Below, piece after piece: positions 7,888 to 27,371 of a stretch of 28,241 nucleotides of DNA. Source of the stretch: a virus; the IMG/VR virus record IMGVR_UViG_3300030109_005307, positions 1 to 28,241 of that record. The stretch is one strand, 5' to 3'. How positions within the stretch are numbered: the first letter of the stretch is position 1; the number at the start of each line of letters is the position of its first letter. The notes under the pieces were generated by a model that did not search any database, was not told where the DNA came from, and was given only the letters and a program-made list of their open reading frames with translations. Both the position numbers and the translations under genes were made by a program.

Positions 7888-8596
7888 TTAATCTCTCTAA
7901 TTCCCTAACTTCGTTACAAACTTTTTTGATATTTTCGTAATACTTTCCCTGTCCTTTATTTTTATTTGTACCCCATGGATTATGTAGTGCAAAAGGAGCT
8001 TTATCTTCTAAAGGATACATATACCCATTATCTATACAAAAGCTCAATACCTCTTTTACTGTTGGTTTTTTGTCTAAGCATGCACTAACAAAATAATCCT
8101 CACAAGGATTACCACCATCTTTCAAATAAGATTCTAACCTATTTTCAATAATATCTAACATAAAACTTTTCTTTCTTAAAGATAATCCACCATTCATAAC
8201 TCTATTGTAAATAGAATCCAAAGGATTTAATATATTACCCCAATAACCACCAATAAAATCAAAATGCTCAAACTCCTCAATCACATGCTCTGAATTAGGA
8301 CACAACATAGAATCTGTTTGGAAAATTAAAATAGTTTCTCCCACACAAGATTCCCAAAAATTTTTAGATGTAAAAAGTTCAACATACTCATCATGATTTA
8401 AATCATCTACTTTTAAATTACTGAAAACGACATTTAAATTACTATCTTTACATATACTATTTACATACTCAAAGTTTTTATTTCCGTGAAAAATTTGTAA
8501 ACCCCATTCATCTGGCAGAATCGACATAACATTATTAAGAACAAAAGATAAAGCTTTGTGTTCTCTAGTTTCTACTATAACAGCTACCTTACTCAT
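7877..8596 (-). CDS. DUF5672 protein, putative glycosyltransferase
   Basis: The protein shows the DUF5672 pattern: QTDS at 93-96 in the place of a metal-binding DxD-like motif, DFIGGYWG at 113-120, NGGLSLRKK at 135-143 and EDYF at 166-169. This arrangement (a TDS motif, a NGG(L/F)SLR strand, then an acidic ED) is that of GT-A glycosyltransferases, and DUF5672 proteins are usually found next to polysaccharide genes. Length is 239 residues. It lies between the carbamoyltransferase and FkbM methyltransferase genes, overlapping both by 8 to 11 bases. A transferase role is family-based inference; donor and acceptor are unknown. Confidence 0.7.
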   Translation of the reverse strand: MSKVAVIVETREHKALSFVLNNVMSILPDEWGLQIFHGNKNFEYVNSICKDSNLNVVFSNLKVDDLNHDEYVELFTSKNFWESCVGETILIFQTDSMLCPNSEHVIEEFEHFDFIGGYWGNILNPLDSIYNRVMNGGLSLRKKSFMLDIIENRLESYLKDGGNPCEDYFVSACLDKKPTVKEVLSFCIDNGYMYPLEDKAPFALHNPWGTNKNKGQGKYYENIKKVCNEVRELERLNGI

Positions 8597-10256
8597 GCTT
8601 ACTTACTAATATACCGTAATCTCTGAAATATAAATAATCTATGTTAGTTCTTAAAAAGCAATCTAAAGCGTGTTGTGGTGTTTCTACGATCGGTTCTCTA
8701 TCATTAAAGCTAGTGTTTAAAACTATTGGAACATCTGTTTTACTCCTAAAATTATCTATAAAATTATAGTACCACTCATTATCTTCTTTACTAACAGTTT
8801 GCAATCTAGCAGTATCATCGAAATGAACTACGGCAGGAACTTTTTCTGACATGCTATCTTTGAACTTCATAGCTACATTCATATATGGACTGTCTACATC
8901 GTGAACAAACCAATCTTTTACATAGTCTCTCAACACCGATGGTGCAAAAGGTCTGAACCATTGACGATGTTTGACTTTCTCATTAACTATATCTTTTGTT
9001 TCTGCATGTCTTGGGTCTGCTAAAATACTTCTGTTACCCAATGCCCTACGACCTGACTCTGAACCACCACCAAAAACTGATATAATTTGTTTATTAATCA
9101 TTTTGTATATAACATAATCATCATCTGCTCCTGTAATTTCTATTTCATCACTTCTTTCATCTAAAGCTTCTTCAACTTCTTCTTCACTATATGTATAGCC
9201 AAGATATGGGCTACAATTCTGAGGTGTGTTGTATATTCTTGGATTATCCAATATTTGATGCCATAAATATCTTGAAGAACCTAAAGACAAACCAGCATCA
9301 TAAGGGATAGGGTCTACAAATATATTTAAATTAGGAAACCAATCGAACATCTTACCCACCGAAACACAATTCAAACTCACACCACCTGATAAGCACAGAT
9401 TTTTTGGTTTGTATTTTTCTATGTAAGGAGATAACAAATCTTTAATTAATATTTCAGTTCTAAGTTGTAAAGAAGCTGCTATATCAAATTTATTCTGTTC
9501 CGATTCCTTAGCTTCTTCAATTAATGTTTCTATATCTATTGGCGCCCAACCTTTCATCGAACCTCTAGTATCACGTAAATCAGACATATTATCAAAATGA
9601 GAAAAGTACTTATCTGGATTTCCCAAAGCAGCCATACCCATAACTGTTCCAGCTTGGTCTCCTCTTGGATCTCTCCAAGTTCCAAGTCCGAATATATGTT
9701 TAGTACAATTTGCCCAATAGTATCCAACATTTATAATACCGCTGGGAATCATTTCTAATGGTTCTATTTTATTACCCTTTCCATACCAAAAAGTAGTGCA
9801 GGTTACAATAGAACCACCTTTCTCATCCATCTCTGATATTTGAGGCGATTTATCAATTTCTGACTTTTCATGCAAAGAACCATCTATATTATCGATACCA
9901 CCACCATCAATAGTCATTATTAAAGCTTCATCATATTCACTAGTAAAAAAAGCATTAGCAGCATGAGATTGATGATGTCCAATTATGTAAAGTCCACCAC
10001 CATTACTTTTTGCTATTTCTTCACACTTATTTAAAGAATCAATGTAACTATTATTAATCATACCACCAGTTCTATGTGTTGTTACATATTTAATATCATT
10101 AAAATCTTTTTCATTATCCAAAAAGAATTGCATGGAATTAGCAACAGAATTTTTTCTTCTATTAAATCTTTCTAATTCATTATGAACTACTGATACACCA
10201 TCCTCTAATATACTGTAAGAAGAATCGTGTCCACTGTGAAATCCTACTATTTTCAT
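8589..10256 (-). CDS. NodU/CmcH-type O-carbamoyltransferase
   Basis: Both halves of the family are present in 555 residues. The N-terminal Kae1-like domain has HHQSHA (94-99) and TIDGGG (115-120) and then SGGVSLNC (290-297). The C-terminal carbamoylphosphate-handling domain has SESGRRALGNRSI (399-411), RPFAPSVL and NTSFNDREPIV. I placed the start at the ATG at 10256, which overlaps the previous stop as ATGA and has GAGGA upstream; the frame is open 12 codons further. The family uses ATP and carbamoyl phosphate to carbamoylate a hydroxyl, usually of a sugar. Some phage members instead carbamoylate 5-hydroxymethylcytosine in DNA. The glycan context favours a sugar acceptor here. Confidence 0.85.
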   Translation of the reverse strand: MKIVGFHSGHDSSYSILEDGVSVVHNELERFNRRKNSVANSMQFFLDNEKDFNDIKYVTTHRTGGMINNSYIDSLNKCEEIAKSNGGGLYIIGHHQSHAANAFFTSEYDEALIMTIDGGGIDNIDGSLHEKSEIDKSPQISEMDEKGGSIVTCTTFWYGKGNKIEPLEMIPSGIINVGYYWANCTKHIFGLGTWRDPRGDQAGTVMGMAALGNPDKYFSHFDNMSDLRDTRGSMKGWAPIDIETLIEEAKESEQNKFDIAASLQLRTEILIKDLLSPYIEKYKPKNLCLSGGVSLNCVSVGKMFDWFPNLNIFVDPIPYDAGLSLGSSRYLWHQILDNPRIYNTPQNCSPYLGYTYSEEEVEEALDERSDEIEITGADDDYVIYKMINKQIISVFGGGSESGRRALGNRSILADPRHAETKDIVNEKVKHRQWFRPFAPSVLRDYVKDWFVHDVDSPYMNVAMKFKDSMSEKVPAVVHFDDTARLQTVSKEDNEWYYNFIDNFRSKTDVPIVLNTSFNDREPIVETPQHALDCFLRTNIDYLYFRDYGILVSKHE

Positions 10257-10960
10257 ATTTTTTTCCTCATAAAGTTTAACATCGTTGGCCAAGTGTAATT
10301 TTTATAAGATTCAACACCAATCTTTGTTTCACACCAATCCAACTCATCTCTAATTTTATTTAACATTTCAGATGAAATGTAATTTGTTTCTGTTATTTTG
10401 TCATCTTTTTTAGATAAACTATCTAATAAATCTGTTGTTAATGTATCACCATCTTTTATAATCTCATAACCATACAAAGATTCCCATTGATTACTGCATG
10501 TATGCAAATCTTCAATAATATATAATCCACCGCCCTTCAAAGAATCCCATAAATAATTTAATGACATCTGCATCTGTTCCATAGAATGTCCACCATCATC
10601 TATTATCATATCAAAATCATTTCCATGCTCTGATATAAACCTTTGTAAATCTTCTTTGTTTGATTGATTTCCCTTAAACAATACAGACCTATCTAAGTAA
10701 GGATTACCTCTCTGCAATACTTTAAATTCTTCTACATAATTTGATCTATCTTGTTCATTAAACACATCAATACCATATATATTTGCGTTTGGAAAATACT
10801 CCAACCACATTCTATGAGATTTGCCTGTTTCTACTCCGATTTCTAATACTTTACTAAAATCATTTCTTACACTACTCAATATTTCATCATAGAGGTTAAT
10901 GTAACCTAAATCTAATTTATCAGCACCATATTTTTTAGCAAGATGTTCTAAACTAACCAT
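10253..10960 (-). CDS. Class I methyltransferase, MycE/CmcI-like
   Basis: Motif I is VLEIGVETGKS at 38-48, the second strand ends IYGIDVF (61-67), and IIDDGGHSMEQM (119-130) carries the paired aspartates and histidine that bind the metal and catalyse in MycE-type sugar O-methyltransferases. The opening segment LAKKYGADK and the later YIIEDLHT are also characteristic of this group. Length is 235 residues. The gene starts right after the stop of the glycosyltransferase upstream and its stop overlaps the carbamoyltransferase start. Methylation of a sugar hydroxyl is the most likely reaction. Confidence 0.8.
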   Translation of the reverse strand: MVSLEHLAKKYGADKLDLGYINLYDEILSSVRNDFSKVLEIGVETGKSHRMWLEYFPNANIYGIDVFNEQDRSNYVEEFKVLQRGNPYLDRSVLFKGNQSNKEDLQRFISEHGNDFDMIIDDGGHSMEQMQMSLNYLWDSLKGGGLYIIEDLHTCSNQWESLYGYEIIKDGDTLTTDLLDSLSKKDDKITETNYISSEMLNKIRDELDWCETKIGVESYKNYTWPTMLNFMRKKI

Positions 10961-11760: not shown

Positions 11761-12900
11761 TTAATACAATATTTTTTTAATTTCATCAAAAACTTCATCA
11801 GCTTTTATCAAGCTCATACATTTGCCGTCATATGGGCAAATAAATTGGTCGTGACAACTTAAACAATCTAATTCTTTTCTTACAAACTTTTTACCTAAAC
11901 CAAATAAATCTGTTTCTTGATATGGTGAAGGACCGAAAAAAGTAATAATGTTTTTTTCAAATCCTATCGCTAGATGAAGAGCCATTGTGTCTCCAGTCAC
12001 AATTACTTTCGATAAATTTATTAAGAAGCTAAACTCTTCTAAAGAATATTTGTTAGTAGTATCAATAACATTGTTATTATTATGTTCATGCAATAATTTA
12101 TGATTTCTCTCCAATTCATCTTTTGCTCCTGATAGTATAATTTTATTCTTTGAATCATTTAGAAGTTTTCCAATCAAATCTTTATAACCATCATAAGTCC
12201 ATTTTTTATGAGGGTAAACTTTACCACAACCTGTATTTAATAATATTAAATTATCATCAGTATTTAACTGATACTCTCTATAAAAATTATTCTTAAACTT
12301 TTCATATTTACTTTCATTTAAAGGAACAAATATTTTTTCATTATCATACTTTAATTCAGAAACATCGAACATCATTTTTTGATAAGTTTTCTTATTCTTT
12401 TGTTTTGCGCCCCAATTATCTAAGCAAATTTCATAATGATATATTGTTCCTTTATTTAAAGGATATGGATGACCAAATTTATTTAGTCCATAACCTCTCT
12501 TATCTGTTGAGTTAAATGATTCAATCATAGAAGTAGCCTTCGCATCCTTATCTAAATTTATTATTACATCAAACTCTTGACATTGTAGTATTCTAACATT
12601 TTCATCATTATATGAAACAACCTCATCTATAAATTTATTATCTTTTAAAAATAATGATGATTCAGTTTGAGTCATCCAAACTAACTTAGAGTTTGGATAT
12701 GCTTTTTTAATACCCTCTGCTAAAGGTGTACATCTGATAACGTCGCCTAACGCATCCAATTTAATTAATAATATTCTATGCGAATACTCACGATATAAAG
12801 GGCTATTAGAATCAAAGCAATTATGGTCTTTATCTATCCAATATTTTTTACAAGGCCTATCACCCTTAAAATCTTTACATAATCCAATCTTTGAAGTCAT
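11761..12900 (-). CDS. GT9 heptosyltransferase-like glycosyltransferase
   Basis: GT9 enzymes (WaaC/WaaF) transfer heptose from ADP-heptose to LPS core. The GT9 opening HRILLIKLDALGDVIRCTPL sits at about 41-60, LNTGCGKVYPHKKW marks the donor domain, and ITGDT-like and FFGPSPYQETDLFG segments follow, as in the family. Two cysteine groups are notable: C8, C17 and C28 in an N-terminal extension before the GT-B fold, and four cysteines in the C-terminal LDCLSCHDQFICPYDGKC, which may bind a metal together. The ATG at 12900 is preceded by AAAGG; a TTG one codon earlier is less likely. It overlaps the transaldolase gene by 26 bases and is a natural user of the sugar nucleotide made by the cassette upstream. 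Confidence 0.8.
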   Translation of the reverse strand: MTSKIGLCKDFKGDRPCKKYWIDKDHNCFDSNSPLYREYSHRILLIKLDALGDVIRCTPLAEGIKKAYPNSKLVWMTQTESSLFLKDNKFIDEVVSYNDENVRILQCQEFDVIINLDKDAKATSMIESFNSTDKRGYGLNKFGHPYPLNKGTIYHYEICLDNWGAKQKNKKTYQKMMFDVSELKYDNEKIFVPLNESKYEKFKNNFYREYQLNTDDNLILLNTGCGKVYPHKKWTYDGYKDLIGKLLNDSKNKIILSGAKDELERNHKLLHEHNNNNVIDTTNKYSLEEFSFLINLSKVIVTGDTMALHLAIGFEKNIITFFGPSPYQETDLFGLGKKFVRKELDCLSCHDQFICPYDGKCMSLIKADEVFDEIKKILY

Positions 12901-13540
12901 CAAGAAAACCTTTTACTGAATAATCTGTCAATGGATGTTCTAAAATAGATGGAAACAAATTATATCCTGCAGTTACTATGTGACCACCAGCTGTCCAAGA
13001 ATCAACAACATCTCTATCTTTTCTAATACTACCTACGATAATTTCTGAATGTATTCCGTTTCTGTCAAAATTATTTCTGACATTTTTAAGAACTTTCAGC
13101 GGATCTCCGCCGGAATCAAGCAACCTATTATAGAACAAAGAAACATATCTAGCACCAGCTAAAGCAGATAACTCCAACTGAGCTTCTGTAAAGCAACAAG
13201 TTACATTTACATCTATTGGATATTGAGACAACTTATTTACTACTTCAAGCTCTTCATAACCAACAGGTATTTTAATATTTAAATTGTCATATGAAAGTGA
13301 CTCATATATTTCAATTGCCTGATCGTACATATCATCTGCTTTTTCTGCAAATACTTCAACACTCAATGGAACTTCACCGTATTCTTCACAAACTTTTACA
13401 ATCTTTTTTATGTGTTTGATGAAATCTGATTTTGGTTCTTTAGACATCAAAGATGGATTGGTGGTAACTCCACTAGCGAATCCTTTTTTTAATGTTTCTT
13501 CAATATGTTCTAAATTTGCTGTATCTATAAAAAATTTCAT
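12875..13540 (-). CDS. talC: TalC-type transaldolase / fructose-6-phosphate aldolase family
   Basis: The small 221-residue transaldolase form: FFIDTANL at 3-10, GVTTNPSL at 24-31 and the Schiff-base lysine K90 in NIKIPVG. INVT-type and SIRKDRDV segments follow in the expected order. Enzymes of this group move dihydroxyacetone units, linking fructose-6-phosphate, erythrose-4-phosphate and sedoheptulose-7-phosphate, or act as aldolases. Marine cyanophages often carry talC with pentose-phosphate genes to feed nucleotide synthesis, but here it is embedded between a cupin and a GT9 transferase in a sugar cassette, which suggests it supplies or shapes a sugar phosphate for glycan synthesis. AGGAG lies five bases before its ATG. 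Confidence 0.85.
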   Translation of the reverse strand: MKFFIDTANLEHIEETLKKGFASGVTTNPSLMSKEPKSDFIKHIKKIVKVCEEYGEVPLSVEVFAEKADDMYDQAIEIYESLSYDNLNIKIPVGYEELEVVNKLSQYPIDVNVTCCFTEAQLELSALAGARYVSLFYNRLLDSGGDPLKVLKNVRNNFDRNGIHSEIIVGSIRKDRDVVDSWTAGGHIVTAGYNLFPSILEHPLTDYSVKGFLDDFKDWIM

Positions 13541-13542
13541 AA

Positions 13543-13962
13543 CTACTCCTTGTCTTCTATGAATTTATAAGTTTTACCATCCTCTACTAAATGAGAATCT
13601 CCATCATCATCTTTCGTGGATGCTTCTATTATTACAGTATCTTCTAATGCCATTCTCATGTGCATTAATCCTGGTTTTATGTGATATACATCTCCCTTTT
13701 CAAGTATCACAGATTTGTTTTTAGCTCTACCAACTCTGAGTCCAACTTTTAATTTGCCAGAATCTATATAATAAGATTCTACTTTCTTTACGTGATATTC
13801 TAAACTACTTTGAGAACCTTTTTTCATAAAAATCTTTTTCACACTATAATCATCTGTTTCAAATAATGTATCCATATGCCCCCAATACTTATCAATACTT
13901 TTTATTGGTTTGTTAATTGGTGGTATTTCAGTTATTCCATATTGTATTTCTTTATTGTCCAT
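13543..13962 (-). CDS. Cupin, phosphomannose-isomerase-type
   Basis: A 139-residue single cupin domain. KYWGHMDTLFETDDYSVK resembles the opening PWGxxxxL...YxVKxxxV of type II phosphomannose isomerases, SLEYHVKKVESYYIDSG supplies the histidine and glutamate of cupin motif 1, and DVYHIKPGLMHMRMAL is cupin motif 2. I chose the ATG at 13962, preceded by GGGGAG, rather than the one six codons earlier. Such proteins isomerise phospho-sugars or bind sugar nucleotides. Being flanked by the AraD-like epimerase and transaldolase, a role in the same sugar-phosphate pathway is likely. Confidence 0.7.
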   Translation of the reverse strand: MDNKEIQYGITEIPPINKPIKSIDKYWGHMDTLFETDDYSVKKIFMKKGSQSSLEYHVKKVESYYIDSGKLKVGLRVGRAKNKSVILEKGDVYHIKPGLMHMRMALEDTVIIEASTKDDDGDSHLVEDGKTYKFIEDKE

Positions 13963-14632
13963 AATAGCTGTTCTCCCCATGCTTTCTTAAAAAGTGTTTA
14001 TCAATTAAATTGGTATCCATATTTACATCGCCAAGTATACAAGTACGATAAGCTAACTTTGCTACATGTTCAAGAACTATAGCATTTTCTACAGCATCAT
14101 CTACAGAATCACCCCACACCACTGGACCGTGACTTGGTAAAAGAGCAGCTTTCATATGAAATGGATTGATTTTATTCTGTTTAAAAAAGTTTACAATTGA
14201 CTTGCCACTATTTTTTTCAAAATCATTATCTATTTCACTTTTAGTTAAATCCTCTACTACTGGAACATCACCATAAAAATAATCAGAATGTGTTGTTCCC
14301 ACACAGGATATTGGCAACTTAGCTTGAGAAAATATAGTAGCGTATTCAGAGTGTGTATGTATTACACTATTTACACCCTCAAATCCTTTGTATATTTCTA
14401 AATGTATATCAGTATCCACAGATGGCTTATGTTTAGATAATGTTTCATACTTCCCTTCATCTGATATATTAACTGTAACTAATTTTTGTATTGTTAAATT
14501 ATCGATAGGAACTCCTGATGGTGTTATAGTAATTAAATTTTTATCTGTAGAGCTTTTAACACTAACGTTACCCCACGAACCAATTACTAATCCACTTTCA
14601 CATATTTTTTTATATGCTTCATATACATTCAT
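13952..14632 (-). CDS. AraD-like L-ribulose-5-phosphate 4-epimerase (class II aldolase family)
   Basis: The 226-residue product tracks AraD along its whole length: SWGNVS at 19-24, TPSGV at 37-41, KPSVDTDIH at 69-77, the zinc pair H92/H94 in IHTHSEYAT, GTTHSDYFYG at 112-121, the third zinc ligand H168 in PSHGPVVWG, and the C-terminal LRKHGENSYYGQ, whose tyrosine corresponds to the essential C-terminal tyrosine of AraD. AraD interconverts L-ribulose-5-phosphate and D-xylulose-5-phosphate. No arabinose kinase or isomerase is present, so it is not a catabolic arabinose gene. With RpiB, a kinase and transaldolase next to it, it probably adjusts the stereochemistry of a phosphorylated ketose on the way to a nucleotide sugar. 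It is coupled to the kinase gene by TAATG. Confidence 0.8.
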   Translation of the reverse strand: MNVYEAYKKICESGLVIGSWGNVSVKSSTDKNLITITPSGVPIDNLTIQKLVTVNISDEGKYETLSKHKPSVDTDIHLEIYKGFEGVNSVIHTHSEYATIFSQAKLPISCVGTTHSDYFYGDVPVVEDLTKSEIDNDFEKNSGKSIVNFFKQNKINPFHMKAALLPSHGPVVWGDSVDDAVENAIVLEHVAKLAYRTCILGDVNMDTNLIDKHFLRKHGENSYYGQ

Positions 14633-15582
14633 TATAAACTTTCCAAATAATACTCTAATTCATCTCTCTTTGGACAAACTGTTCCGTGCTTTTCAACAGA
14701 CAGACCAGCCCAACAGTTACTAATAAATAGTGAATTTTCTGGATACTCCTTCCAATTTGTTAACGATAAGCACGAAATAAAACTATCTCCAGCACCGCAT
14801 GGATCTACTTCGTTTATATCAATTATATTTTGATGGTACTTTTTTCCATCCATATAAAGAATCGATCCATCCCTACCACTTGTAACACAAATATCACATC
14901 CGAATATTTTTGGTAAATCTTCCATTGACTGACCTTCGTCTAAATTAAATTCAGCTTCCAATTTGTTCATAACAATTAAATTAGCTCCTTTGAAATTGAT
15001 ATGATTTGAAACTAATCCTCTACCATAATCTGATATTTGAGAACTAACAACTATAGGAATCTCTTTATTAGTTAATACTGGCATCAAACTATTTGTAAAT
15101 TCCTCTGTAAATAATCCATGCCTATAATCTATTAGCATAATTACATCAAAATCTTCACTATGTATTAACTTTTTTACTTCATAACACATAGAAACTATTG
15201 TTTTCTGTTTAATCGCTTGATTGTCAATAACATTTATTTGTAAATGTTTGTAATTAGAACCACCTCTCTCAACCCAAAACCTTTCCTTAACAGTATTTTT
15301 TCTATTCTCTTCTACCATAGGAAAAAAATTACCTTTAAAATTAAAATCTTCATCATAATTTCTAAAGTACTCATCATCTCCGAGCAAAGTTAAAAAGGTT
15401 ATGTCGGCACCTAACTCTGATAAGTTTTTTACTACATTACCAGCTCCACCAAACGTATGTTTCTTTTCTGAAAACTGAGCTTTTAATGTAGGTGTCTCTA
15501 AAGATAAACCTATGGCTTTAGCATAAGTCCATACATCTAAAATTACATCACCTATTATAAGAACTTTTTTATTTTGAATCAT
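14632..15582 (-). CDS. HldE/RfaE N-domain-like PfkB sugar kinase
   Basis: This 316-residue ribokinase-family protein resembles the kinase half of HldE, which phosphorylates heptose-7-phosphate at C1. It opens KVLIIGDVILDVWTYA, has the GGAGNV substrate loop at 45-50 and LGADITFLTLLGDDE just after it, VMNKLEAEF late in the protein, and the catalytic GAGD at 263-266 (D266). The final WAGLSVEKHGT is also HldE-like. In Enterobacteria this domain is fused to the nucleotidyltransferase; here the latter is fused to RpiB in the gene directly upstream, with the two genes overlapping by 14 bases. The substrate is presumably the sugar 5-, 6- or 7-phosphate made by that isomerase. Confidence 0.8.
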   Translation of the reverse strand: MIQNKKVLIIGDVILDVWTYAKAIGLSLETPTLKAQFSEKKHTFGGAGNVVKNLSELGADITFLTLLGDDEYFRNYDEDFNFKGNFFPMVEENRKNTVKERFWVERGGSNYKHLQINVIDNQAIKQKTIVSMCYEVKKLIHSEDFDVIMLIDYRHGLFTEEFTNSLMPVLTNKEIPIVVSSQISDYGRGLVSNHINFKGANLIVMNKLEAEFNLDEGQSMEDLPKIFGCDICVTSGRDGSILYMDGKKYHQNIIDINEVDPCGAGDSFISCLSLTNWKEYPENSLFISNCWAGLSVEKHGTVCPKRDELEYYLESL

Positions 15583-16420
15583 TATCTTTTATCTTTCTTA
15601 TCACACCAGTAGTGGATTTGTCAACTACAAGTGGAAATATTTTAATAACTATATCCTCTTTTATTTCATCTCTTCTTCTTATTTCATCAGCAGTAAATTC
15701 TCCACCTCTAACAACCACATCAGGATTAACACTATCTCTAATATCCTTTGGTTCTATACTATCAAATATTACAACCTCATCAACACAATCTATAGATTCC
15801 AATATAGCCTTTCTATCTTGTTGAGAGTTTATTGGTCTATTATCACCCTTTAGTTTTTTTATTGAATCATCTGAATTTATAGCTACAATTAATTTATCGC
15901 CAAATGTTTTAGCAAATTTCAGTAAACCTATGTGTCCAGTATGTAATATATCAAAACAACCATTGGTAAAAACTATTTTATTAGGTTTATGTTCAGTAAT
16001 CTTCTCAACTCTTTTTACATGCCTTCCCTCACCAAATGGAGTTGATAACCAAGTATCAACGATTTGTAAAGATTGCTTTTCTGTTGTTATCCAAGATCCA
16101 AGACAGATAACATTTGAATCATTATGTTCTCTAGTCAACGGAGCTGTATCTAAATTATGAACTAATGATCCTCTAACATTTTTGAATCTATTGACTGCTA
16201 TACTCATACCAACACCTGTACCGCATATTAATATACCAAAATCAGCGTCTTTTTTATCAACTATGCTACCAAGTTGATAAGCATAATCTGTATAATCCAC
16301 ACTATTGTTACTATCTGGTCCTAAATCTACACATCGATAACCATTACTTTTTAAATGTTCATACAATACTTTCTTTAATTCTACACCATTGTGGTCAGCA
16401 GCTAATACTATTGTCTTCAT
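15569..16420 (-). CDS. Fusion of RpiB-type isomerase and HldE C-domain-type nucleotidyltransferase
   Basis: Two full domains in 283 residues. Residues 1-145 are a ribose-5-phosphate isomerase B fold with AADHNG (7-12), C66 in CGTGVGMS (66-73), H99 in LTREHND (95-101) and GEGRHVKRVE (130-139), so the known catalytic cysteine and histidine are kept. Residues 147-280 are an RfaE2/HldE nucleotidyltransferase with FTNGCFDILHTGHIG (151-165, HxGH at 160-163), RPINSQQDR (195-203), VVRGGEFTADEI and STTGVIRKI (269-277). The fusion implies that the isomerised sugar phosphate is destined for activation as a nucleotide sugar. A strong GAGGAG precedes the ATG, coupled by TAATG to the HAD gene. The nucleotide (ATP or CTP) and sugar are not known. 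Confidence 0.85.
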   Translation of the reverse strand: MKTIVLAADHNGVELKKVLYEHLKSNGYRCVDLGPDSNNSVDYTDYAYQLGSIVDKKDADFGILICGTGVGMSIAVNRFKNVRGSLVHNLDTAPLTREHNDSNVICLGSWITTEKQSLQIVDTWLSTPFGEGRHVKRVEKITEHKPNKIVFTNGCFDILHTGHIGLLKFAKTFGDKLIVAINSDDSIKKLKGDNRPINSQQDRKAILESIDCVDEVVIFDSIEPKDIRDSVNPDVVVRGGEFTADEIRRRDEIKEDIVIKIFPLVVDKSTTGVIRKIKDNDSK

Positions 16421-16725
16421 TATATCTCCTCAATTCTTTTTGTTCTATCACATATCAATAAATCATAGAAAGGTTTTTCACCAGCGCTCAACTCATGATA
16501 TTTAGCGCCCCATTTATCTAATTGGTTTTTTGTTAATTTATAGTAATCATTACCAGAAGTAGACCCTCTAGCAGTCCAATATTTAATATAATTACCATTT
16601 TCATATAATTTATTTATTTTTTTTATATTATCATACCACGGCACAGAATTTTGATACTGACTATCTGTAACTTGAGAACATATTGTATTATCAATATCTA
16701 CATATATAATTTTTTTATTTTTCAT
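16420..16725 (-). CDS. Small HAD-family phosphatase
   Basis: A 101-residue minimal HAD domain without a cap. The nucleophile motif is VDIDNTIC with D10 and D12, motif II is TARGS at 51-55, the motif III lysine is K84 in GEKPFYD, and the acidic motif IV is CDR at 92-94. I chose the ATG at 16725 because GAGGAG lies just upstream; the longer frame begins inside the previous gene. Similar proteins occur in capsule and LPS loci. Its place directly before the isomerase-nucleotidyltransferase fusion and the kinase suggests that it removes one phosphate from a sugar bisphosphate, the job GmhB does in the ADP-heptose pathway. That role is inferred from order only. Confidence 0.7.
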   Translation of the reverse strand: MKNKKIIYVDIDNTICSQVTDSQYQNSVPWYDNIKKINKLYENGNYIKYWTARGSTSGNDYYKLTKNQLDKWGAKYHELSAGEKPFYDLLICDRTKRIEEI

Positions 16726-17521
16726 ATAGCTCCTCATAAATTCTTTTCATCCAGTAAGTTCTATCTCTACCCATGTCGCTTGGTGGTATAGCATTAAACT
16801 GATACACCCAACCTGAATTATAAAGATTTTTTAAACTGTCTTCCCAATAGCATTGTGGGTGAAAATAAAATAACTGTTTTCTAACCATATCCATCATGCC
16901 AAATTGTCTCGGTAAAAGTTTCATCTCTAAACCAAACTCTTTTCTCATACAATTAATTAGTGATATATCACTTCCTGTTAACAGAGTATCATACGAATCA
17001 ATAATTTTTTGTTTGTTTTTTTCATAAAAATCAAATACTTTATCAAAAAACTCTTTGTGGTCTTTGTTAATAATAACAAAACCAGTTTGAAAAAACTCAA
17101 AAGATGGTATACAAAACTCTTTGTTCCAAAACATTTTAGAGTATCCATTTATAGCTCTATTAACCCACTCAAAATCACCATCTGTAAGAACGCTTGTGAA
17201 TTTATTATCTGTCATCTCAAAGAAATTAGGACAATCAGGATGAACCATAGAGTCAGCATCAACAACTAATACTTGATTGTATTCTATATCATTATGTTCT
17301 AGTATATTAAGAACTTGCCATCTCTGCCAAGTTATTAACATTTGAGATTCAGGACAAAGTAAATCTGACATAACATACACTTCATGACCATTCTTTTCAG
17401 CCCAAGCTTTCCAAGAATTTATACCATACTCATAACCCTGATGTCTATTTGCATGTCCTACACTAGCTTCTGTAAAGTTTGTTTCTCTTTTTATATATGG
17501 TATAAAAATTATATTCTTCAT
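16715..17521 (-). CDS. GT-A-type glycosyltransferase
   Basis: The 268-residue protein has a DxD motif, VVDADSMVHP at 86-95 (D88, D90), after a KRETNF...ANRHQGYEYG N-terminal part, and FFQTGFVIINKDHKEFFD later, a typical acceptor-side strand of GT8/GT-A-like enzymes. It lacks a signal peptide or membrane segment, so it is expected to act in the cytoplasm on a nucleotide-sugar donor. Its start overlaps the upstream DUF616 gene as ATGA. I cannot assign donor or linkage. Confidence 0.65.
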   Translation of the reverse strand: MKNIIFIPYIKRETNFTEASVGHANRHQGYEYGINSWKAWAEKNGHEVYVMSDLLCPESQMLITWQRWQVLNILEHNDIEYNQVLVVDADSMVHPDCPNFFEMTDNKFTSVLTDGDFEWVNRAINGYSKMFWNKEFCIPSFEFFQTGFVIINKDHKEFFDKVFDFYEKNKQKIIDSYDTLLTGSDISLINCMRKEFGLEMKLLPRQFGMMDMVRKQLFYFHPQCYWEDSLKNLYNSGWVYQFNAIPPSDMGRDRTYWMKRIYEELYEK

Positions 17522-26155: not shown

Positions 26156-26752
26156 TTATGCATATGAGTCAAGCTTTTTTATAAAAATTATTTTCTTATT
26201 TTCACCAGTTGGTTTTACAAACATCTTATCTAAGTTGTCTTTATGCCATTTCATAGATACTGCTTTATGTTTAGGTAAACCAGCCGTTTCACCAATCTGT
26301 TTCCAATTATCTGCTTTGTATACAGCACCATTGTTACCACCAGCAACAAAAGTAATCAACCATCTCAAATCATCTCCATACTTTTTCTTCCATTCTATAG
26401 GCGCTTGTTTTCTAAGTTGTTTCAATATTTGTGTTCCTGCATTCTTAATATATGTAGTCATACAAAATCTCCAATTATTTCCAAACTCATTAAAACTATC
26501 TTTATACTCATCCTTCTTCATTTCGACATATCTTAGAATATCCTTTGGTGGTGGATAAACTGAAGAACCTATACCAATCATCCCAATCGGCTTTTCAAGC
26601 CCCAACACATTTGTATAATCTGAATGGTAAACTAACCAATCTATTCTTCTACCTACCGAATCGTTGGATGCTACATAACTATGGTGTTTTTCTATGATAC
26701 TTTTTACTGCCTGTTTCTGACTGTTGTCCTTTACCAATTCAATCTTTATCAT
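26156..26752 (-). CDS. Mom/DUF4338 (DruA)-like protein
   Basis: The 198-residue protein begins with a helix ending IIEKHHSY (19-26) and has NNWRFCMTTYIKN (92-104), an APIEWKKKYGD stretch, and TFVAGGNNGAVYKADNWKQIGETAG (134-158). The last stretch is the core signature shared by Mom-type and DUF4338 proteins (ETFVxxxxxxGxxYKAANWxxxGET). DUF4338 includes DruA of the Druantia defence system. It looks like a divergent partner of the Mom protein encoded directly upstream, sharing the EKHH block at the same position. Catalytic transfer to adenine is plausible; a defence or anti-defence function is the alternative. Confidence 0.65.
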   Translation of the reverse strand: MIKIELVKDNSQKQAVKSIIEKHHSYVASNDSVGRRIDWLVYHSDYTNVLGLEKPIGMIGIGSSVYPPPKDILRYVEMKKDEYKDSFNEFGNNWRFCMTTYIKNAGTQILKQLRKQAPIEWKKKYGDDLRWLITFVAGGNNGAVYKADNWKQIGETAGLPKHKAVSMKWHKDNLDKMFVKPTGENKKIIFIKKLDSYA

Positions 26753-27371
26753 TTAATTTTTTTATTTGTCTTTTGATTCTTTTGTTTAGATAGTATACAT
26801 AAATATGTTTGGGATTTGTCTTCTTCCAAAATATATTTTCGTCACCAGCTTTATATCTACGATTCAATTCTCTACCATATGGTCTCTTTATCTGATTAAG
26901 TGACCGACTATGTGTTTCTTTACCATCTACCATCAGTATTCTACCTTTAGCAGTTTCACCTAAGTAATCAAAGTTGGTAGCTTTGTAAATCACACCTGTA
27001 TGTCCGTGGTGTTGGTCAGCAAATGAAACTATAACTTCCATATCCGTATCTCTTTTTAGTAACTTAAATGTTTGTCCTATAAAATAACTTTCTGTATTCT
27101 TAGGCGTATCATCGATACAAACTAATCTTCTAAGTTCTAAACATTTCTCTGGATTGATAGGATTGTACTTAGCTGCTGTAGCAGGCATTGATGGATAAGC
27201 ATACATCATAGCTCCAATCATTTTTGGAATACCAAAGTTACCCTCTGTAAATAATCCATAGTGATATAGAGATTGGACACCATTTACATTATGTGAGTAA
27301 TGATGTTTCTCTATAAACTTTACTACTGACTTTCTAGGTATCTCCTCAACCGTAAAGTCTTTTACAGACAC
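26739..27371 (-). CDS. Mom-like DNA adenine hypermodification protein
   Basis: Mom of phage Mu converts adenine to N6-carbamoylmethyladenine, shielding DNA from restriction, and has a GNAT-like fold. This 210-residue homologue has FIEKHHYSH (19-27), MYAYP (56-60), the conserved CLELRRLVCIDDTPKNTESYFIG (77-99), and the hallmark SFADQHHGHTGVIYKATNFDYLG (116-138). The order and spacing match the family. The start is GTG at 27371, overlapping the clamp-loader stop as TAGTG. Unlike Mu, there is no com-like regulator next to it. It probably modifies phage DNA, with DUF1599 and the second Mom-like gene as helpers. Confidence 0.8.
   Translation of the reverse strand: MSVKDFTVEEIPRKSVVKFIEKHHYSHNVNGVQSLYHYGLFTEGNFGIPKMIGAMMYAYPSMPATAAKYNPINPEKCLELRRLVCIDDTPKNTESYFIGQTFKLLKRDTDMEVIVSFADQHHGHTGVIYKATNFDYLGETAKGRILMVDGKETHSRSLNQIKRPYGRELNRRYKAGDENIFWKKTNPKHIYVYYLNKRIKRQIKKLNDKD

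Follow-up and report, generated by a model that had tools for sequence, protein, structure and literature searches.

A conserved phage gene cassette as a candidate transaldolase-based route to a nucleotide-activated octose

Known activation pathways and the phage locus

Among the described systems, the synthesis of the antibiotic lincomycin and a set of cyanophage genes offer the closest comparisons for a gene cassette found in the IMG/VR virus record IMGVR_UViG_3300030109_005307, of whose 34,134 bases the first 28,241 constitute the stretch of DNA analyzed here (the window). In the lincosamide pathway, LmbR combines ribose-5-phosphate with a C3 unit of fructose-6- or sedoheptulose-7-phosphate to give an octulose (PMC5854111). 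Later on, an isomerase, a kinase, a phosphatase and a nucleotidyltransferase act on it, with LmbN, LmbP, LmbK and LmbO finishing the guanosine diphosphate (GDP)-octose (PMC4351081). The octose genes follow the order R-S-O-P-Z-N-M-L plus K (PMC12945683, Table 2). On the viral side, T4-GC 304, 305, 307 and 308 were reported to co-occur as lipopolysaccharide (LPS) genes in T4-like phages, and whether such cyanophage genes are functional or stuffer DNA was left undecided in 2010 (Sullivan et al., 2010; PMC3037559).

The cassette of the window encodes a HAD phosphatase, an RpiB isomerase fused to an HldE-type nucleotidyltransferase, an HldE-type kinase, an AraD-type epimerase, a cupin and a TalC-type transaldolase, followed by a GT9 glycosyltransferase. 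This series had been proposed in an initial annotation made from the sequence alone, and gene calls and family assignments agree with it, the HAD protein being recognized by its motifs and by a profile match to PDB entry 9iqw. The cassette very likely represents a dedicated sugar-activation pathway, and it is probably functional. The activated sugar probably has eight or seven carbons. That the cassette suffices by itself for making a nucleoside diphosphate (NDP)-octose specifically is put forward tentatively, as a reading that falls somewhat short of an even chance; the octose would probably be linked to adenosine diphosphate (ADP). The more general view of the initial annotation, namely a conserved cassette that follows the isomerase, kinase, phosphatase and nucleotidyltransferase logic of ADP-heptose synthesis with exchanged enzymes, is borne out.

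Conservation of the gene set

A protein scan with the RpiB-nucleotidyltransferase fusion found 8 viral contigs, an alignment-based search found 50 viral contigs with the full fusion, and scans with the cupin and the kinase added four further viral contigs carrying the fusion cassette, which brings the total to at least 54 IMG/VR contigs. The cassette is also present on two contigs of bacterial metagenome-assembled genomes, assigned to Armatimonadetes (L010) and Proteobacteria (L011). These cassettes represent 27 lineages that are less than 80% identical, and each of the six families varies hardly at all at its catalytic positions. The genes are under purifying selection: in a comparison of the window with contig L066, each has a ratio of nonsynonymous to synonymous substitution rates (dN/dS) of 0.06-0.18.

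The prevailing order of the fusion cassettes is RpiB-nucleotidyltransferase, kinase, AraD (where present), cupin, TalC and HAD. The HAD gene stands first in the window, L066, L092, L094 and L107, and AraD precedes the kinase in L092, L107, L111, L114 and L011. A second viral set (L215, L210, L211, L212, L218) consists of AraD, an unfused RpiB, kinase, TalC and cupin, with HAD, nucleotidyltransferase and a second kinase further on. This maintenance of one enzyme set in two arrangements is the strongest evidence for a single pathway. RpiB-nucleotidyltransferase, kinase, cupin and TalC were found in every contig long enough, and L071/L072, L243, L113 and L010 lack AraD, in line with a stereochemical step that is optional. 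A chance neighborhood, the outcome against which the initial annotation had asked for a search of gene order, is rejected by this co-conservation across lineages. In a separate observation, three contigs (L073, L078, L079) carry a second nucleotidyltransferase-kinase-cupin set directly downstream of the main cassette, which suggests two related activated sugars in one phage.

Outside these contigs, no INPHARED phage record covered 80% of the fusion query. When the bacterial search was widened to the class of G002 (385 genomes) and the phylum of G001 (291 genomes), each group yielded a single match, the starting genome itself, so that this search identified no bacterial donor.

The activation core of the cassette is already known from cyanophages. 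In P-SSM2, P-TIM68 and S-SM2 the cassette profiles match all four clustered genes for nucleotidyltransferase, kinase, HAD and cupin. In these three genomes (L062, L061 and L063, respectively) the gene T4-GC 306, named 'phosphoheptose isomerase', encodes a phosphatase of the same HAD family as in the cassette, and T4-GC 307, named 'nucleotidyltransferase' or 'cysteine dioxygenase', is the cupin; these database names are misleading. New relative to the cyanophage core are the RpiB-nucleotidyltransferase fusion, AraD and a transaldolase distinct from the metabolic TalC of cyanophages. Literature searches did not find this gene set described in viruses, and the statement of the initial annotation that it was not known to be described in a phage does not hold for the core (T4-GC 304-307), part of which was noted in 2010 (PMC3037559).

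The absence of the heptose isomerase GmhA was correctly predicted, since no SIS_2 match is present in the 34-kb record or in six large relatives. P-SSM2, P-TIM68 and S-SM2 also lack a SIS_2 gene, and in a search of 36 cassette or core records a match above the cut-off turned up in one viral record alone (L247). As the viral sets that have the activation core and no TalC are almost all devoid of GmhA, the cupin is the best candidate isomerase there. Transketolase genes occur within ~5 kb in 6 of 25 kinase or core records without TalC versus 0 of 15 TalC-cassette records, small numbers that are suggestive of interchangeable ketose-building modules.

Cassette enzymes and the reactions they may catalyze

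All cassette genes lie on the minus strand, each overlapping or abutting the next, which amounts to a coupled-operon-like layout. Pfam and NCBIfam back every family assignment except that of HAD. Curated cut-offs are missed by the HldE kinase, HldE transferase, AraD, TalC and heptosyltransferase assignments, indicating subfamilies whose substrates may differ.

The transaldolase (12875..13540), the proposed builder of the ketose phosphate, belongs to a specialized subfamily of TalC (PF00923, 6.8e-39; TIGR00875 160.5 bits versus a cut-off of 245.95). The Schiff-base lysine K90 is present in 54/54 sequences and the transaldolase-type E62 in 52/54. Canonical TalC proteins carry the segments VSPF(L/V)GR and ASIR; in the cassette proteins P135 is never found (0/54), residue 137 is aromatic in most, G138 is retained in only two of 54, and G170 is present in 54/54. 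In a tree, cassette TalC is set apart from cyanophage and bacterial metabolic TalC with a support of 100/99. Several of these features reappear in an LmbR-like protein, the only TalC-type protein found among 396 Streptomycetaceae genomes, which has L135, an aromatic residue (W137), C138 and G170. Its operon (L286, G819:C12:261500-281400) shows the order R-S-O-P-Z-N-M-L-K, as in the lincosamide octose genes, the neighbors being in turn a DegT aminotransferase, a MobA-like NTP transferase, a GHMP kinase, a GFO/IDH oxidoreductase, a SIS isomerase, an epimerase, a UDPG/MGDP dehydrogenase and a HAD protein. The SIS protein of this operon is short (202 aa), LmbN having an extra carrier domain there. 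The transaldolase features in common with LmbR favor an eight-carbon (or seven-carbon) product over the pentose or hexose that the initial annotation had also considered beside a heptose.

The fusion gene (15569..16420) joins an N-terminal RpiB domain (residues 4-141; PF02502, 1.3e-49) to a C-terminal nucleotidyltransferase (residues 151-255; PF01467, 1.6e-20). These two domain matches and the single open reading frame found in 53/53 sequences compared confirm the predicted fusion. By its scores the RpiB domain is of the canonical ribose-5-phosphate isomerase type, exceeding the curated cut-offs of NF004051 (170.5 bits versus 135) and TIGR01120 rpiB (144 versus 138.65), with D9, H10, C66, H99, R133 and R137 invariant (n=53). 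A LacAB-type enzyme was considered and rejected, canonical RpiB structures in PDB far outscoring LacA or LacB. The suggestion that RpiB takes the place of GmhA therefore stands in regard to the missing GmhA and is weakened in regard to its substitute, RpiB being canonical, with no need to act as a replacement, and the cupin a better candidate for ketose-to-aldose isomerization. In the nucleotidyltransferase half, which retains the HxGH and KGxxRP motifs, D157, G162, H163 and R195 are invariant (n=53) and H160 is found in 51/53; the HldE cut-off TIGR02199 is missed (151 bits versus 181.5).

The kinase (14632..15582), of PfkB/HldE type and the proposed anomeric kinase, matches TIGR02198 (3e-37, 128.4 bits) below the curated HldE kinase cut-off of 345. 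K99, R101, N206, E209 and the GAGD motif are conserved, the latter in 52/53 sequences. Its AlphaFold2 model (predicted local distance difference test score, pLDDT, 92.8) finds HldA (4e8z/4e84) as top PDB matches, with an E-value ~7 orders of magnitude ahead of ribokinase. The pockets of kinase and nucleotidyltransferase had been named as the point at which the proposal might fail; their active sites are kept, and degenerate pockets are rejected on the conserved catalytic residues of kinase, nucleotidyltransferase and RpiB.

The minimal, cap-less HAD protein (105 aa; 16420..16737), the proposed sugar-bisphosphate phosphatase, starts at 16737, the formerly assigned 16725 being an internal ATG (MKNKK...). 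Alone it matches no Pfam or NCBIfam family. It carries the motifs DxDxT, T/A/R, K and D, of which DxDxT, T55/R57, K88 and D97 are kept in nearly all of 48 relatives, and its alignment profile matches the 'capsule biosynthesis protein' 9iqw with 3e-21. The cupin (13543..13980), of type II phosphomannose-isomerase-like kind and the proposed ketose/aldose phosphate isomerase, matches PF01050 with similarity to GMP_PMI and keeps E61, H63, E68 and H107 in nearly all of 52 sequences. The AraD-type class II protein (13952..14632), an optional component proposed as C4 epimerase, matches PF00596 (5.8e-45) and, as the nearest PDB entry, E. coli AraD 1jdi (7e-48), below the cut-offs of TIGR00760 (215.7 versus 389.1) and NF006047 (247.4 versus 257). 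H92, H94 and H168, which we take from E. coli AraD to be the Zn ligands, are invariant (n=48), as are D117 and Y224, presumably the equivalents of its acid/base pair.

We infer each reaction of the pathway, together with chain length, nucleotide and acceptor. RpiB would convert ribulose-5-phosphate into ribose-5-phosphate. To this TalC would add a dihydroxyacetone unit, drawn from fructose-6- or sedoheptulose-7-phosphate, yielding octulose-8-phosphate. Where present, AraD could epimerize C4 by breaking and remaking the C3-C4 bond, the same bond that TalC forms. The cupin would then isomerize the ketose to an aldose, the HldE-type kinase would phosphorylate C1, the terminal phosphate would be taken off by the HAD protein, and the C-terminal nucleotidyltransferase of the fusion would form the NDP-sugar, to be used by GT9 or neighboring transferases.

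The GT9 gene (11761..12903, minus strand), heptosyltransferase-like and a candidate user of the product, matches PF01075 (2e-14, 54 bits versus a gathering score of 22), and the heptosyltransferase equivalogs TIGR02193/02195 are not reached. In the window it overlaps TalC and so follows the cassette at once, as had been noted, an adjacency present in only part of the relatives: GT9 scores above the cut-off in 11/49 cassette records and lies beside the cassette in 10 of those 11, being a frequent and not a general neighbor.

Nearly all genes of the window are called on the minus strand. Among the backbone genes of the phage are those for a T4-type clamp loader and for an exonuclease, whose closest named relatives are those of Flavobacterium phage immuto and Microcystis phage Mel-JY01 at ~43% identity. 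The cassette is embedded in a long stretch of glycosyltransferases, methyltransferases and sugar enzymes, and its flanks (glycosyltransferases, FkbM and C-methyltransferases, a carbamoyltransferase and sugar epimerases) suggest a decorated glycan as the destination of the product. The carbamoyltransferase gene lies at 8589-10292, and such genes also adjoin the nucleotidyltransferase in P-SSM2, S-CAM1 and S-CAM3. The polysaccharide flippase PF01943 was not found in 14 cassette records, G000 included, by a search positive in 13/14 control genomes; this weakens a role in O-antigen export, although the records may be incomplete, and leans slightly towards a cytoplasmic target such as a virion protein, DNA or a host glycolipid. 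Elsewhere in the window, two neighboring Mom-like DNA-modification genes (phrog_1384) at 26156-26752 and 26739-27371, of which the second matches strongly, make base modification in the phage a possibility. A DegT/DnrJ aminotransferase at 745-1668 has as its best-matching stretch positions 160-359 of a 360-position profile, only the second half, and is possibly truncated or diverged.

Candidate products and comparison with known pathways

The octose scheme would give every cassette enzyme a reaction near known chemistry, with AraD as an optional C4 epimerase. Several findings weigh against it. Both the kinase and the nucleotidyltransferase belong to the heptose (HldE) type, and GT9 stands for a family of heptosyltransferases, all of which favors a seven-carbon sugar. 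Two isomerases and AraD allow more than one order of steps, and HAD was not recognized in L111 and L114. The cupin model resembles a broad range of cupins, among them D-lyxose isomerases and phosphomannose isomerase, and none stands out by function, so that the isomerase role is proposed from its context. The LmbR-like sequence diverges strongly, sitting on a long branch, and has Q where cassette TalCs carry E, which makes the residues in common suggestive only.

The main rival is close to the view of the initial annotation. TalC would produce sedoheptulose-7-phosphate, RpiB or the cupin would replace GmhA, AraD would set an unusual stereochemistry, and HldE-type kinase, HAD and nucleotidyltransferase would deliver ADP-heptose to GT9. 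The similarity of kinase and nucleotidyltransferase to HldE/HldA speaks for an NDP-heptose, as do the GT9 gene adjoining the cassette in a subset of records and the nearby carbamoyltransferase. However, sedoheptulose-7-phosphate is a normal cell metabolite, which would make a dedicated, specialized transaldolase and an RpiB redundant, the RpiB domain is of the canonical pentose-phosphate kind, and the curated HldE and heptosyltransferase cut-offs are missed, so that this product is considered unlikely, if a serious contender. A pentose is more doubtful still. AraD would convert xylulose-5-phosphate into L-ribulose-5-phosphate and the RpiB domain a pentulose-5-phosphate into an aldopentose-5-phosphate, from which kinase, HAD and nucleotidyltransferase would make NDP-arabinofuranose or NDP-ribofuranose, for instance for decoration of DNA or glycans. 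AraD and RpiB are canonical enzymes of pentose-5-phosphates, have their residues intact and stand side by side in the unfused arrangement, and phage DNA with pentose decorations exists (PMC6024577, PMC12838424), but the scheme leaves TalC and cupin, which are universal, without a job and relies on AraD, which several lineages lack. Finally, RpiB, TalC and AraD might serve pentose-phosphate auxiliary metabolism for nucleotide supply beside an unrelated glycan locus, TalC being a common metabolic gene of cyanophages. The fusion of RpiB to the nucleotidyltransferase, the co-conservation of the set in two arrangements and two bacterial contigs, and the different clade of cassette TalC make such a division highly improbable.

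A conserved, residue-intact and rearrangeable set is evidence of selection for a pathway among the phage 'LPS' genes, a puzzle since 2010. An octose as product would mean that higher-carbon nucleotide sugars have a further, new source, and would lead one to expect a new glycan on the surface of phages or of infected cells. In its broadest form, which is put forward more tentatively than the octose assignment itself, the proposal is that numerous phages from the environment, T4-like ones among them, carry an NDP-octose pathway that is complete and was assembled independently, in which a lincomycin-style transaldolase is combined with HldE-type activation and a ribose-5-phosphate supply fused to the nucleotidyltransferase, placing eight-carbon sugars on virions, DNA or the host surface.

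With the ADP-heptose pathway the cassette has in common an HldE-type kinase and transferase, a HAD step and a nearby GT9 gene. It differs in lacking GmhA and any recognized GmhB-type HAD, in adding TalC, AraD and cupin, and in the fusion of RpiB to the transferase. The clustered cyanophage module T4-GC 304/305/306/307 is homologous in its HldE-type nucleotidyltransferase, HldE-type kinase, small HAD and cupin, whereas it has no RpiB fusion and no TalC inside, the cyanophage talC lying elsewhere in the genome; an AraD-like gene is found only in S-SM2 and a transketolase near the module in P-TIM68 and S-SM2. Regarding the lincosamide pathway, homologues of LmbN (SIS) and LmbP (GHMP) were not found in the 34-kb record, which has no SIS_2 gene and a PfkB-type kinase, so the cassette 'works like' that route and 'is' not one. 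In both, a TalC-type transaldolase comes first, and the functions of isomerase, kinase, HAD phosphatase and nucleotidyltransferase come after it. The LmbR-like operon fills them with a SIS isomerase, a GHMP kinase, a HAD of another type and a MobA-like transferase, whereas the phage cassette has a cupin, a PfkB kinase, a minimal HAD and an HldE transferase, plus RpiB and AraD. The logic known from lincomycin, for which literature searches found no viral counterpart, would then, if the phage product is an octose, recur in phages with the same chemistry and with enzymes of different families.

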